Positions 4,323 to 7,934 of a stretch of 64,000 nt of DNA are shown here, in pieces. The notes beneath the pieces were generated by a model. The model did not search any database. It was not told the DNA's origin and saw nothing but the letters and a program-made list of their open reading frames with translations. Where the stretch lies: assembly GCA_037965595.1 (NCBI GenBank), contig CP150183.1, forward strand, positions 3,410,001-3,474,000. Reading direction: 5' to 3'. The first letter of the stretch is position 1. Every line of letters starts with the position of its first letter. Source of the DNA: Alkalihalobacillus sp. FSL W8-0930. Its GTDB lineage: Bacteria > Bacillota > Bacilli > Bacillales > Bacillaceae_D. Both the position numbers and the translations under genes were made by a program.

Positions 4323-4575
4323 TGCGCGAGATTGTGGCGGAAGTGCGCGAGGTTCTTTCTTTTTGCGCGACTTTGCGGCGTTCGTGCGCGACCTCCTCCC
4401 TTTCTGCGCGACTTTGCATGGGGAGTGCTCGACCTCCCTTCTTTTTGCGCGACTTTGTATGGACCGTGCTCGACCTCCCTTCTTTCTGCGCGACTTTGCG
4501 TGGAGAGTGCGCGACCCTCCCTCTTTCTGCGCGACTTCACATGCCTCACGCACGACACTCCCTAATCACGCACAA
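4323..4575 (+). repeat. Phased TGCGCGA tandem array (array 1)
   Basis: This gene-free stretch between convergent hemQ and yidC holds 12 copies of TGCGCGA or close variants (TGCTCGA, CGCACGA) starting at 4323, 4344, 4364, 4385, 4405, 4426, 4446, 4467, 4487, 4508, 4528 and 4549; a 13th degenerate copy is at 4569. Spacing alternates exactly 21, 20, 21, 20 bp, a 41-bp repeat made of two half-units. The spacers are pyrimidine-rich (CTCCCTTCTTTC type). All reading frames stay open because 41 is not a multiple of three, so the overlapping Arg/Ser/Cys-rich ORFs here are not taken as genes. Confidence 0.93.
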
Positions 4576-4611: not shown

Positions 4612-5397
4612 TTACTTCGTTTCTAACTCTGCAAGCTTTGCGTTCGGGCGAATGACTACAAAGTATGTTTGGATGATCATAAAGATGTTTCCGATTACCC
4701 AATAAAGGGAAAGGGCTGAAGGTAGCGTTACACCGGCAATGATGATCATAACTGGCATTACATACAGTAAGATGTTCATTGGGTTTGGCATACCTTCTAC
4801 TGTTGGCATTTGCTGCATTTGGCTCATCGACATTTTAAACTGGAAGAAAGTCGTGATTGCCGCAATAACCGGTAATACATAGTCAGGTTGTCCTAAGTTA
4901 AACCATAGGAACTCATGGGCTCTAATTTCTTCCGTACGAATAATCGCAAAGTAGAATGCCATGATGATTGGGAATTGTACAAGAATCGGTAAACATCCGG
5001 CTAATGGATTTACTCCATGCTTTTGATACAAGCCCATCATTTCTCTTTGAACTTCTTGCTGAGCTTTTGGATCTCCCTTTTTCTTTTTCATTCTTTCTTG
5101 AATTTCTTGCATTTCTGGGCGTAGCAACTGCATTTTACGTGTACTTTTTTGTTGCTTTAATACAAGTGGCAGTAACACACAACGGATCAAAATCGTTGTA
5201 ATGATAATGGATAGACCATAGTTGTTATTAAAGAATACGGCTACTGTTGTAATAAGCCAAGACATTGGGTATACAAAAAAGTGACTCCAAAATCCTTCTG
5301 TTTCAGCTGTAATTGGTGCTTGCTCCATAGGTGAACAAGCGGACAAGACAACCATTAATAAGGCCATTGTTAACATGATAATATGTGACTTCTTCAA
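4612..5397 (-). CDS. yidC: Membrane protein insertase YidC/OxaA (lipoprotein form)
   Basis: Inserts membrane proteins with or without SecYEG. The 261-residue product starts with a lipoprotein signal peptide ending LSAC (Cys21), followed by the conserved five-helix core; the cytoplasmic loop [17 protein letters not shown] sits between helices, and the conserved Arg of the hydrophilic groove is in [10 protein letters not shown] near residue 72. The start is a TTG at 5397, with AAGGAGG ending 10 nt upstream. No rnpA/rpmH lies nearby, so this is probably the second, non-oriC paralog (YqjG/YidC2 type). The preceding small ORF and an mRNA hairpin over the ribosome-binding site suggest MifM-like control (see that entry). 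Confidence 0.93.
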
Positions 5398-5406
5398 AAT
5401 GAAAAT

Positions 5407-5462
5407 TCCTCCTTGTTGGTTATACGCATTTTTGATTTTAAGCTGCTACCACAAGGGATGGA
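5407..5462 (-). promoter_or_regulatory. mRNA stem-loop sequestering the yidC ribosome-binding site
   Basis: In the leader-yidC transcript CCTTGTGGT (5456-5448, inside the last leader codons) pairs with ACCAACAAGG (5420-5411) with one bulged A, giving 9 bp that include AAGG of the yidC Shine-Dalgarno. After a small internal loop TCC (5462-5460) can pair with GGA (5409-5407), covering the rest. The 27-nt loop contains the leader stop codon. Translation of yidC would need this helix to be opened by a ribosome on the leader. Confidence 0.7.
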
Positions 5463-5707
5463 GCTTCATCATCAGAGCCATATTGATCATAAATCGACGG
5501 TATCTTCGGACGATAGGTGACCGACATAGGACAAACAGGTGGATCTACTCTAGAGCTATAGATCGTCACGAGTCGTTCTTTCAGTTGGTTCGATCTAATT
5601 TTGTGATGATTAAAAGCAAGATTAATTCTAGCGAACGCTGCCAGCATGTATAATCCAATTAATAAAATCGCACCAATCATCATCATCTCTAAAAGTAATT
5701 CAATCAC
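5438..5707 (-). CDS. Small membrane-anchored leader peptide, MifM-like candidate
   Basis: An 89-residue product with a GTG start at 5707 and a strong AGGAGG 9 nt upstream, ending 40 nt before yidC. Residues about 2-26 form one hydrophobic helix (rich in Leu/Met/Ile), followed by a basic stretch and a C-terminal tail with an acidic cluster, [14 protein letters not shown]. In B. subtilis MifM (95 residues, one N-terminal TM helix) stalls at an acidic DEEDAG stretch and so opens a hairpin over the yidC2 SD. Here the gene order, size, TM helix, acidic motif and SD-sequestering hairpin all match, although overall sequence similarity is not evident. The arrest function is inferred; coding status is well supported. 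Confidence 0.75.
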
Positions 5708-5742
5708 ACCTGCTCACCTCCTACCCTTTACGCAATAGTCTC

Positions 5743-5771
5743 ATCGTACCACACATGTCCTACGTTCTCAA
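5743..5771 (-). promoter_or_regulatory. SigA-type promoter of the leader-yidC transcript
   Basis: On the minus strand TTGAGA (5771-5766) and TACGAT (5748-5743) have a 17-bp spacer and lie 36 bp before the leader GTG, separating this transcript from the upstream ABC operon. Confidence 0.6.
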
Positions 5772-5791: not shown

Positions 5792-7042
5792 TTATTTTTT
5801 TGAAAGCGATAACGCAGCTTTAATTCCTTTGAATAATGAATTGCTGCCATACATAATGACGCCACCTTTGTAAACGTTGGCTGCAAATAAGCTAAAGACG
5901 ATGATCGAAACAATCATCACTCCAAAGGAAAGAATGACTTCCCATAAAGGAATGGCTAGTAGACCTAAACGCAGGAACATGATAATCGGTGAGAAAAATG
6001 GTATCCATGAAGTAACCGTAACCAGCATTGACTCTGGATTGTTTAAGCCAAAGATCGCAATAAAGAATGCAATCATCACCATATAAATGAGTGGTTGAAT
6101 CAATGTGTTCACATCTTCTACACGGCTTACTAAAGAGCCAAGCATCGCTGCAATACTACCGTATAGTAAGAAGCCGAGAACTAAGAAAATGAGTGCATAA
6201 CCAACTAAGTCATATGGAATGTTCGATCCGAGAAGCTCTGATATAAAGCTATCTTCTGTTGAACCTCTGATTAAAAGACCTAGTCCCGCACCGATTAAAA
6301 GGATCACAAGTTGAAGTAAGGCTGTTAATCCAATCCCTACAATCTTCCCAAACATCTGCACGATTGGATGAACACTCGACACAAGAATCTCCATGACACG
6401 CGATGATTTTTCCGTTGCTACCTCCGTCGCAATCATCGTTCCATAGACAATGACTGCCAAATAAATAACGAATAGGAGTATATACACGATCGTCTGAGCT
6501 TGAGACGTTTCTTCTTCTGTACGATCAGGAGTGAGAGAAGACTCTGCAGATTCAGTATCAAAAGAGATTGGAGCATAAATGGAAGCCAACTGCGCTTCAT
6601 CAAGTCCTAGCTCTAGTGTTGCAACAGATTCTTTTACACGCTGCACCGTTGTTTCCACTTCGTTTGCCACACTTGTTGATACATCATTGGCATATAATAA
6701 GGCCGATAGTTGGCCGGACTCATCCGTTTGTAAGCTGAGTACATAATCTGATTCTGTTTCTTCAAGAACCTCGCTTGGCTCTCCCTGTTGCGCCGATTCA
6801 TTTGTCGCTTCGAATTCTTGAGCAGATAACTCTTGAGTCACAATTTCTGCAATTTCTTCTTGGTCACCAACAACAGCAATGGATTCTGCACCATCCCCTT
6901 CACCAGAGAACGCTTCAAAGATTCGATCAACATTTAAGAAACCTGCAATCACCAGAATCGTAATAATGGTAGTAATCATAAACGCTTTTGTCTTTAAACG
7001 GTTCGTAAACGTATGCATAGTGACTGTCCAAAAATTATTCAT
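5792..7042 (-). CDS. yhcI: ABC-2 type exporter permease (YhcI-like)
   Basis: Membrane subunit of an ABC exporter. One N-terminal TM helix (about 22-42) is followed by a large acidic extracytoplasmic domain of about 150 residues and then five or six TM helices, the NatB/YhaP/YhcI architecture. The start is taken at ATG 7042, which overlaps the end of the ATPase gene by 8 nt; a longer TTG start at 7063 has no separate RBS. It closes a five-gene operon in the same order as B. subtilis yhcE-yhcF-yhcG-yhcH-yhcI. The exported substrate is unknown. Confidence 0.85.
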   Translation of the reverse strand: MNNFWTVTMHTFTNRLKTKAFMITTIITILVIAGFLNVDRIFEAFSGEGDGAESIAVVGDQEEIAEIVTQELSAQEFEATNESAQQGEPSEVLEETESDYVLSLQTDESGQLSALLYANDVSTSVANEVETTVQRVKESVATLELGLDEAQLASIYAPISFDTESAESSLTPDRTEEETSQAQTIVYILLFVIYLAVIVYGTMIATEVATEKSSRVMEILVSSVHPIVQMFGKIVGIGLTALLQLVILLIGAGLGLLIRGSTEDSFISELLGSNIPYDLVGYALIFLVLGFLLYGSIAAMLGSLVSRVEDVNTLIQPLIYMVMIAFFIAIFGLNNPESMLVTVTSWIPFFSPIIMFLRLGLLAIPLWEVILSFGVMIVSIIVFSLFAANVYKGGVIMYGSNSLFKGIKAALSLSKK

Positions 7043-7934
7043 ATGAGGTCCCCACTTTCTCAACGAATATGTCGTGTAAGCTTGGTTCTTCTACTTCAAA
7101 GCGTTCAACAAATCCTTTTTGTGTGATTTGCTGAAACAATGATTTTGCCGCTTCCATCCCATCCACTTGAACACGTGCTCCATTTGGGAAGGCTTCAAAT
7201 TTCGTCACACCTGGTTGTTCCTGCAAGAAATCAAGCGAATAATCGGCGCGAATCAACACATTCTTCTTTCCGAAATCTTGTTTAATTTCTTTCAGCTTTC
7301 CATGAACAACTGGTTTTCCCTTATGCATGATACACAGATGTTCACATAACTCCTCTACATGCTCCATCCGGTGACTGGAAAAGATAATTGTTGAGCCTGC
7401 GTTTTTTAATTCGATGACGGCTTTTTTCAGAAGGTCGACATTTAAAGGATCTAATCCACTGAACGGCTCATCTAGAATGACCAATTCCGGATTATGCAGG
7501 ATTGCAGCGATGAATTGAATTTTTTGCTGATTCCCTTTTGAAAGCTCCTCAATCTTTTTGTTTTCATATTCTGGCACCTTAAAGGTCTCTAGCCACTGTT
7601 TGGTCGCTTTTAAGATGTCCGTCTTTTTCATTCCTTTTAATCGTCCCAGGTAAAGGAGCTGTTCCTTTACTGTTAGCTTTGGGTAAAGTCCTCGTTCTTC
7701 AGGTAAGTACCCCACTAAGCTAGTACGGCTATAATCGATCTTCTGACCATCCCAAGTAATCGTTCCATCTGATGGGTCCAGAAGCCCAAGAATCATTCGG
7801 AACGTTGTTGTTTTCCCCGCTCCATTTGCTCCGAGCATTCCAAAAATGTCACCTTTAGGTACATGAATCGAAATGTCTTTCACCGCTTGATGCTGACCGA
7901 ACTGCTTTGACACGTGATCAATGGATAAAGTCAT
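7035..7934 (-). CDS. yhcH: ABC transporter ATP-binding protein (YhcH-like)
   Basis: A 299-residue nucleotide-binding subunit with Walker A GANGAGKTT (about 34-42), an ABC signature reading LSKGNQQK, Walker B VILDEPFSGLD and the switch histidine in SSHRMEH, then a C-terminal extension of about 90 residues typical of NatA/YhaQ-type ATPases. The ATG at 7934 overlaps the stop of yhcG (ATGA) and is preceded by AAGGAG, so translation is coupled. It most likely pairs with the permease that follows. Confidence 0.9.
   Translation of the reverse strand: MTLSIDHVSKQFGQHQAVKDISIHVPKGDIFGMLGANGAGKTTTFRMILGLLDPSDGTITWDGQKIDYSRTSLVGYLPEERGLYPKLTVKEQLLYLGRLKGMKKTDILKATKQWLETFKVPEYENKKIEELSKGNQQKIQFIAAILHNPELVILDEPFSGLDPLNVDLLKKAVIELKNAGSTIIFSSHRMEHVEELCEHLCIMHKGKPVVHGKLKEIKQDFGKKNVLIRADYSLDFLQEQPGVTKFEAFPNGARVQVDGMEAAKSLFQQITQKGFVERFEVEEPSLHDIFVEKVGTSYE

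Follow-up and report, generated by a model that had tools for sequence, protein, structure and literature searches.

The second yidC gene of the window (by which we mean the whole 64,000-nucleotide stretch of DNA that was analysed) is preceded by an 89-codon leader that very probably encodes a MifM-type, YidC-monitoring arrest peptide; its arrest motif has been rewritten and is longer-spaced, and the stalling is predicted. The leader is a coding sequence, it is conserved throughout its family, its motif keeps a fixed spacing and it ends in a covarying hairpin that occupies the Shine–Dalgarno (SD) sequence of yidC. The elements of this system, in the direction of transcription, are as follows.

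5743..5771, minus strand: promoter-like site TTGAGA-17-TACGAT, with TG before the -10 (consensus scan)
5717..5722, minus strand: leader SD, AGGAGG (sequence)
5438..5707, minus strand: leader ORF, 89 codons, GTG start, predicted MifM-type arrest peptide (homologs before yidC; dN/dS)
5630..5686, minus strand: hydrophobic helix, residues ~8–26 (sequence by eye; hydropathy and first-charged-residue rule in 30 distinct leaders)
5498..5512, minus strand: conserved motif RPKIP, residues 66–70 (P67 and K68 invariant in the 22 rows of alignment A1)
5465..5473, minus strand: acidic cluster D79-D80-E81 (alignment; placed like the acidic run of published MifM-class leaders)
5460..5462, minus strand: 3-bp extension of the hairpin, 5' side, UCC (folding)
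5448..5456, minus strand: hairpin 5' arm, CCUUGUGGU, in the last leader codons S84–V87 (folding, family covariation)
5411..5420, minus strand: hairpin 3' arm, ACC(A)ACAAGG, running into the yidC SD (folding, family covariation)
5408..5414, minus strand: yidC SD, AAGGAGG (sequence)
5407..5409, minus strand: 3-bp extension of the hairpin, 3' side, GGA (folding)
4612..5397, minus strand: second yidC copy (TTG start, 261 aa), grouping on the YidC2 side when the tree has an outgroup (PF02096, E 3.9e-53; trees; best PDB match 3WO7)

The original prediction had described an 89-codon ORF with a strong SD, ending 40 nt before yidC, with a promoter of its own and a single N-terminal transmembrane (TM) helix, and each of these elements was recovered. 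The ORF runs from 5707 to 5438, 9 nt lie between the end of AGGAGG and the GTG, and 40 nt separate the leader stop from the TTG of yidC at 5397. The consensus scan that yielded the promoter-like site is weak alone (6 sites found vs 4.0 expected), but 33 of 34 family loci have a TG-N-TANNNT element in the 90 nt preceding the leader, compared with 18% of base-shuffled upstream stretches. At about residues 8–26 the peptide is hydrophobic, the 19-residue hydropathy maximum covering residues 1–19, and hydropathy predicts one TM helix in all 30 distinct leaders. The charges that flank the helix of the window leader (E3 and E7 before it; R27, K36 and R38 after it) suggest an N-out/C-in orientation, which the sequences of many other leaders are likewise predicted to favour. 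The automated charge count for the window leader is low, (0,0) before the helix and (1,0) after it, because the hydropathy window begins at residue 1. Compared with Pfam and NCBIfam, the leader gave no match up to E 1.

How widely is the leader distributed? Of the 36 genomes sampled from the family of the window, 34 have a homologous leader ahead of the second yidC; 28 of these were found by sequence search, with the loci checked, and six by reading the DNA upstream of yidC. The search covered 60 relatives and returned 30 hits: 28 proved to be leaders immediately ahead of a second yidC, and the other two (L028, L030) were rejected, there being no yidC in the locus. Eight family genomes had no search hit, and reading revealed the leader in six of them (L073, L074, L075, L077, L078 and L079). 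Relatives lacking the leader had been named as evidence that would count against the original prediction; this applies to one genome of the 36. In that genome (G015, 2.6 Mb; locus L072) a family-type yidC2 is present and the leader absent, and this is a natural deletion of the control element. The other exception (G026; locus L076) has a leader of another class, TWLTCLTKRKESPEDDGD / KRKESPEDDGD, before a yqjG-type yidC, and leader and gene look as if they had been replaced together. Beyond the family, searching 298 genomes of the order with a profile produced 22 hits: ten in the window's own family, nine further leaders before yidC outside it (L038–L045 and L047), and three (L046, L048 and L049) that were set aside, not being leaders before yidC.

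Among named relatives, the leader is 94% identical in Alkalicoccobacillus gibsonii and 63% in A. murimartini. Within the genus its third codon positions change most often, and dN/dS lies between 0.09 and 0.23 (10 pairs of 5 genus sequences). The leader peptide is under purifying selection.

Which parts of the peptide are held constant? An alignment of 22 leaders shows no variation at P67 and K68 and very little at P70, D74 and D79, while the middle of the peptide drifts. The 17 rows from outside the genus are only 21–36% identical to the window leader; the TM helix, PKIP and the acidic cluster persist in them, some rows varying the motif (HPKVH, for example). The alignment in relatives that had been proposed as a check thus came out as predicted, with TM helix, acidic motif and SD pairing kept and the rest drifting. 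Judged by this alignment, the conserved element extends upstream of the acidic codons to take in RPKIP (66–70) and D74, a refinement of the original prediction. RPKIP would lie inside the exit tunnel, near the constriction, and D79-D80-E81 is the predicted stalling region at the peptidyl transferase centre (PTC).

The spacing of these elements is also constrained. In 27 of 30 distinct leaders the acidic cluster opens 12 residues downstream of the P of PKIP; in the others the figure is 10, 11 or 13. The stretch between the TM helix and the last residue of the acidic cluster, which is the point measured to and not a known P site, spans 49–64 residues (median 57) in the 30 leaders by a 19-residue hydropathy window, and 44–58 (median 55) by the first-charged-residue rule, which gives 55 for the window leader. 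The published TM-to-arrest median for MifM is 54, and in the leaders of secA and secDF (most Sec monitors) the spacer is typically longer and more variable (PMC10987492). The tail that follows the acidic cluster varies in length from 5 to 13 residues. Outside the family the motif becomes RKIPS...DDE. In several families the uORFs before yqjG-type genes read, by eye, W-(I/L/M)-x4-(K/R)-R-K/M-...-P-DD (L076, L092, L093, L097, L098 and L099); other uORFs of the order, such as L096 and L087, are without this pattern.

Does the hairpin amount to more than chance? Folding confirmed the structure that had been proposed, a 9-bp hairpin (CCUUGUGGU with ACC(A)ACAAGG) and a 3-bp extension (UCC with GGA), in which the last leader codons pair with the yidC SD. 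The minimum free energy (MFE) is -18.1 kcal/mol (z -2.61), with 1 of 200 shuffles as good, and the pairing of the yidC SD ranks second among 50 mechanically listed SD-bearing ORFs of the window. The MFE fold also pairs the codons of D80–E81 with bases just before the yidC start, a feature absent from the original prediction. Taken alone the window hairpin is unusual, not extraordinary, and its evidence is modest; we regard it as more than chance because it is conserved and covaries across the family.

The evidence from the family comes from 34 loci, or 29 distinct loci after removal of 5 duplicates. Each has a stem of 8–18 pairs in which 2–5 bases of GGAGG are paired, and nearly all the 5' partners lie inside the ORF. 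The mean duplex energy is -15.4 kcal/mol with native arms and -11.4 kcal/mol with swapped ones; in 20,000 permutations the native pairing was never equalled, and the same held for a diverse subset of 17 loci. At only 10 of the 29 loci do the native arms beat every swap, because relatives often share identical arms; 3 of 28 swaps are as good in the window, and 24 of 28 at L004. In an alignment of 19 of the 29 loci, 8 of 11 stem pairs have changed on both sides and 89% of the cells pair; none of 500 shuffles reached any of five covariation measures, and sliding the partners by 1–3 columns lowers every one of them. These values are to be read with the structure drawn after the alignment had been seen, with one row (L073) out of register, and with ten loci left out as near copies or for a shifted register (L006, L017 and L018 among them) or a changed frame. 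We conclude that the SD stem is kept by compensatory change.

The rnpA-linked yidC1 genes served as a control and gave no native-arm effect (14 of 16 loci usable, with crude SD calls; the two without a call were dropped). In one family locus (L015) the SD pairing is not in the MFE fold, and the stems of L075, L078 and L079 take in just 2 of the 5 GGAGG bases. The advantage of native arms over swaps recurs in a mixed set of 25 other leaders of the order (0 of 10,000 as good). Three rows of this set are discounted, the SD called for L052 and for L098 being apparently within yidC and the call for L047 doubtful; L095 and L087 are roughly level with their mean swap, and L039 falls below it.

A natural experiment bears on the same question. 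Three loci, L075, L078 and L079, share a genus group (g7) with L077 and L020 and have a different reading frame across the stem. Their peptides end DDDGPYPCCMHQ, with PCC in place of LVV, the corresponding stretch of L020 being DDDDPLLVV; the RNA stem CCUUGUUG and its partner CAACAAAGG are retained in all three. The frame change is probably one shared event. Since the stem was kept despite the changed frame, it has been selected as RNA, and the freedom of the peptide to change after the acidic cluster is as expected if its message is read out before that point. A covarying stem together with a natural change of frame gives good grounds for thinking that selection acts on the RNA switch itself.

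How might leader and hairpin act together? The N-terminal helix of the leader would be a substrate of the cell's own YidC insertase. If insertion were prompt, it would pull on the nascent chain, and the ribosome would pass the acidic cluster and finish the leader; the last codons would then refold as the hairpin, burying the yidC2 SD, and little YidC2 would be made. If insertion were slow, contacts of the nascent chain, with PKIP in the tunnel and DDE, a fixed 12 residues on, at the PTC, would hold the ribosome at about codons 79–83. The parked ribosome would cover the foot of the hairpin, the SD would be open and YidC2 would be made. The stall, its site, its release by insertion and the resulting induction of yidC2 are thus the predicted steps. 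The footprint of a ribosome on mRNA reaches to about +15. With the last acidic codon in the P site and this reach, 5–12 stem pairs would be covered at all 29 distinct loci; in the window, with E81 in the P site, the ribosome would cover 5 of the 9 pairs, including two that reach into GGAGG. The geometry is therefore in keeping with the earlier proposal that a ribosome stopped on the acidic codons covers the foot of the hairpin.

Could a simpler arrangement account for these observations? The leader might be an ordinary small membrane protein, the hairpin being opened by plain translational coupling with no regulated arrest. The hairpin lies within the last codons, so any translating ribosome would melt it briefly. 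However, a tail that changes frame (L075, L078 and L079) and varies from 5 to 13 residues is unlike the end of a functional protein, the PKIP-to-acid spacing is fixed in 27 of 30 leaders and the TM-to-acid distance matches that of YidC monitors; we consider plain coupling highly unlikely. To suppose that the hairpin acts alone, as an RNA thermometer or a constitutive repressor, with the ORF incidental, would fit how strongly it is kept as RNA. But the ORF is under purifying selection, its peptide motif is kept far upstream of the stem, and an Rfam scan of the window found no family at gathering thresholds, so that we give this explanation next to no credence.

A regulated arrest might also respond to some signal other than YidC insertion, such as membrane potential, sodium or pH. 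The genus is Alkalicoccobacillus, and this genus and its family are largely alkaliphilic, which lends the idea some appeal. Against it, the gene downstream is yidC2, the leader is built like an insertion monitor, and MifM and CliM both sense insertion. We think such a signal highly unlikely, though the two ideas overlap, because insertion may itself depend on membrane potential. The MifM-type arrest peptide that monitors YidC is the explanation we prefer.

Which YidC lies downstream of the leader? The window genome has two YidCs, and the rnpA-linked copy and the leadered copy form separate groups in the trees; the possibility that the leadered gene is a recent copy of the local yidC1 was accordingly rejected. 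In a tree of 51 rows, 11 of them outgroup rows from other orders of the class, chosen from 20 loci, the second copies of the order stand opposite YidC1 and the outgroup with support of 98/99. This side holds the yqjG, family and RKIPS types alike. Support for joining the family rows with the RKIPS rows is 85/97, below what the tool marks with a star, and L088, L089 and L090 are on long or unsure branches. A midpoint-drawn tree without the outgroup placed the leadered family nearer YidC1/SpoIIIJ, and a SpoIIIJ-type assignment was rejected since the outgroup tree places the second copies opposite YidC1. That the leadered yidC belongs with YidC2/yqjG, a further refinement of the original prediction, is supported by the outgroup, on which the assignment rests. 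As all the leadered types lie opposite YidC1 and the outgroup, a single old yidC2 with a leader would be the simplest history.

The best PDB match of the leadered YidC is 3WO7, 'YidC 2', at 353.5 bits; the genome's own YidC1, with a 240-residue piece as the query, reaches 255 bits vs 353 for the leadered copy. We take 3WO6 and 3WO7 to be YidC2 of Bacillus halodurans. The Bacillus halodurans YidC2 is treated in PMC6783614.

How close is the leader to MifM of B. subtilis? In both, a uORF immediately precedes the second yidC, a single N-terminal TM helix is followed after about 55 residues by the arrest region (a predicted one in the window leader), an acidic run is near the C-terminus and a stem that sequesters the SD lies in the end of the leader. 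In both, the gene that follows groups with YidC2 when the tree includes the outgroup, and the arrangement therefore corresponds to mifM-yidC2 in B. subtilis. The arrest motif of B. subtilis MifM is RIxxWIxxxxxMNxxxxDEED (PMC7897499). By contrast, the window leader is without RIxxWIxxxxxMN and has YRPKIPSxxD followed by the acidic cluster, only the acidic run being shared. In models of MifM, R79–N81 make contact at the constriction and E87/D89 near the PTC (PMC6037786, PMC4423224). R79–N81 are 5–7 residues before the acidic run, whereas PKIP begins 12 before it in the window leader.

Comparisons of profiles and motifs gave a mixed picture, any homology to MifM sequences being weak. By hhalign the wider alignment (A2) reached 70.8% against one B. 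subtilis-type leader and 57.9% against five, and the family alignment (A1) 6.5% against MifM sequences. The family profile did not find MifM among PDB chains, and none of 398 genomes contains the strict B. subtilis motif when it is written as a DNA pattern. When a 23-residue stretch of MifM was compared with 298 genomes from the order, 26 had matches at E up to 1. Seven of the loci, which belong to a single family (f43, L052–L058), are leaders before yidC; six weaker matches that were looked at are not. The B. subtilis-type leader of L052 reads RITTWIRKVFRMNSPVNDDED. The earlier phrase 'functionally equivalent but sequence-diverged' fits these results, the B. subtilis arrest motif being absent outside the acidic run. 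The case that the leader works like MifM is strong; we do not claim that it is MifM in the strict sense.

Has the class been described before? The survey of Fujiwara et al. (2024) collected 572 MifM-class uORFs from 592 genomes by requiring an N-terminal TM segment, a soluble part of more than 30 residues and a charge limit of -0.3 in a 5-residue window within residues 70–100 (PMC10987492). The window leader passes the filters that we compared: it has the TM segment and the soluble part, and by hand count a charge of -0.6 at D79-D80-E81. The 572 may include the leader's family, which would count as a member under these broad criteria provided that it belongs to the survey's sequence cluster. 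Neither PKIP nor KIPS appears in the main text of PMC10987492. RPKIP was not met in the open literature searched (full text and, elsewhere, titles and the starts of abstracts), subscription papers and supplements being outside the scope.

Two other classes invite comparison. CliM of the Clostridia (uC_KYxIW) is a uORF of yidC with a TM helix, an arrest released by insertion and a stem-loop over the yidC start, an architecture that has been tested experimentally (PMC13183943). The window leader resembles it in being a yidC uORF with a TM helix and a stem-loop near the yidC start, insertion-released arrest being only predicted here; it differs in that KYxIW near the C-terminus is absent, as read by eye, and in belonging to another bacterial class. 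ApcA and its RAPP-type relatives are uORFs of yidC, secA or secDF with a C-terminal arrest sequence (PMC10987492, PMC7897499), the motif of ApcA, ApdA, ApdP and RQH being defined as R/Q/H-A/G/D-P/G/S-P/G (PMC10987492). Here too the leader is alike in being a yidC uORF with a C-terminal arrest sequence, predicted in this case. It contains no RAPP, RAPG or RGPP; DEAPS has an AP, but the R is missing and the surroundings are acidic.

Some features of the neighbourhood may be recorded. ABC exporter genes (an ABC-2 permease and an ATPase, 5792–7934) lie just upstream of the leader on the same strand, a scan of the window found no terminator between the permease and the leader, and a same-strand permease match was seen in the flanks of 19 of 28 leader loci (30 loci searched). 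Between hemQ and the end of yidC is a tandem array of a 41-bp unit in 4.4 copies (4357–4537); its core, TGCGCGACTTTGC, occurs exactly four times in the genome, three of them within the array.

What emerges is, very probably, a known circuit with a rewritten arrest motif. We put forward tentatively, as an idea that falls a little short of probable, that a clade of the Bacillales rewrote the MifM arrest code and kept the circuit, giving a long-spaced class [R/P]KIPSxxDx(2-5)DDE. The codes set against it are the W-(I/L)-x4-(K/R)RKESPxDD-like ends of several families and the RIxxWI...MN...DEED of B. subtilis. If the idea is true, the contact in the tunnel would be some 5 residues further from the PTC than in B. 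subtilis, so the nascent chain would have to be more compact or use another site of contact. Leader and yidC would also behave as one exchangeable cassette, L076 carrying the other class with a yqjG-type yidC.

The leadered YidC is nearer to the crystallised YidC 2 (3WO6/3WO7) than is the genome's other YidC, and control, structure and function could therefore be studied on one group of proteins. These leaders form a natural series in which seemingly one feedback circuit, from YidC activity to yidC2 translation, is run with different arrest sequences on related ribosomes. Such a series lets one ask which contacts stalling needs, and by what route an arrest code may be altered while the regulation that it serves is kept.
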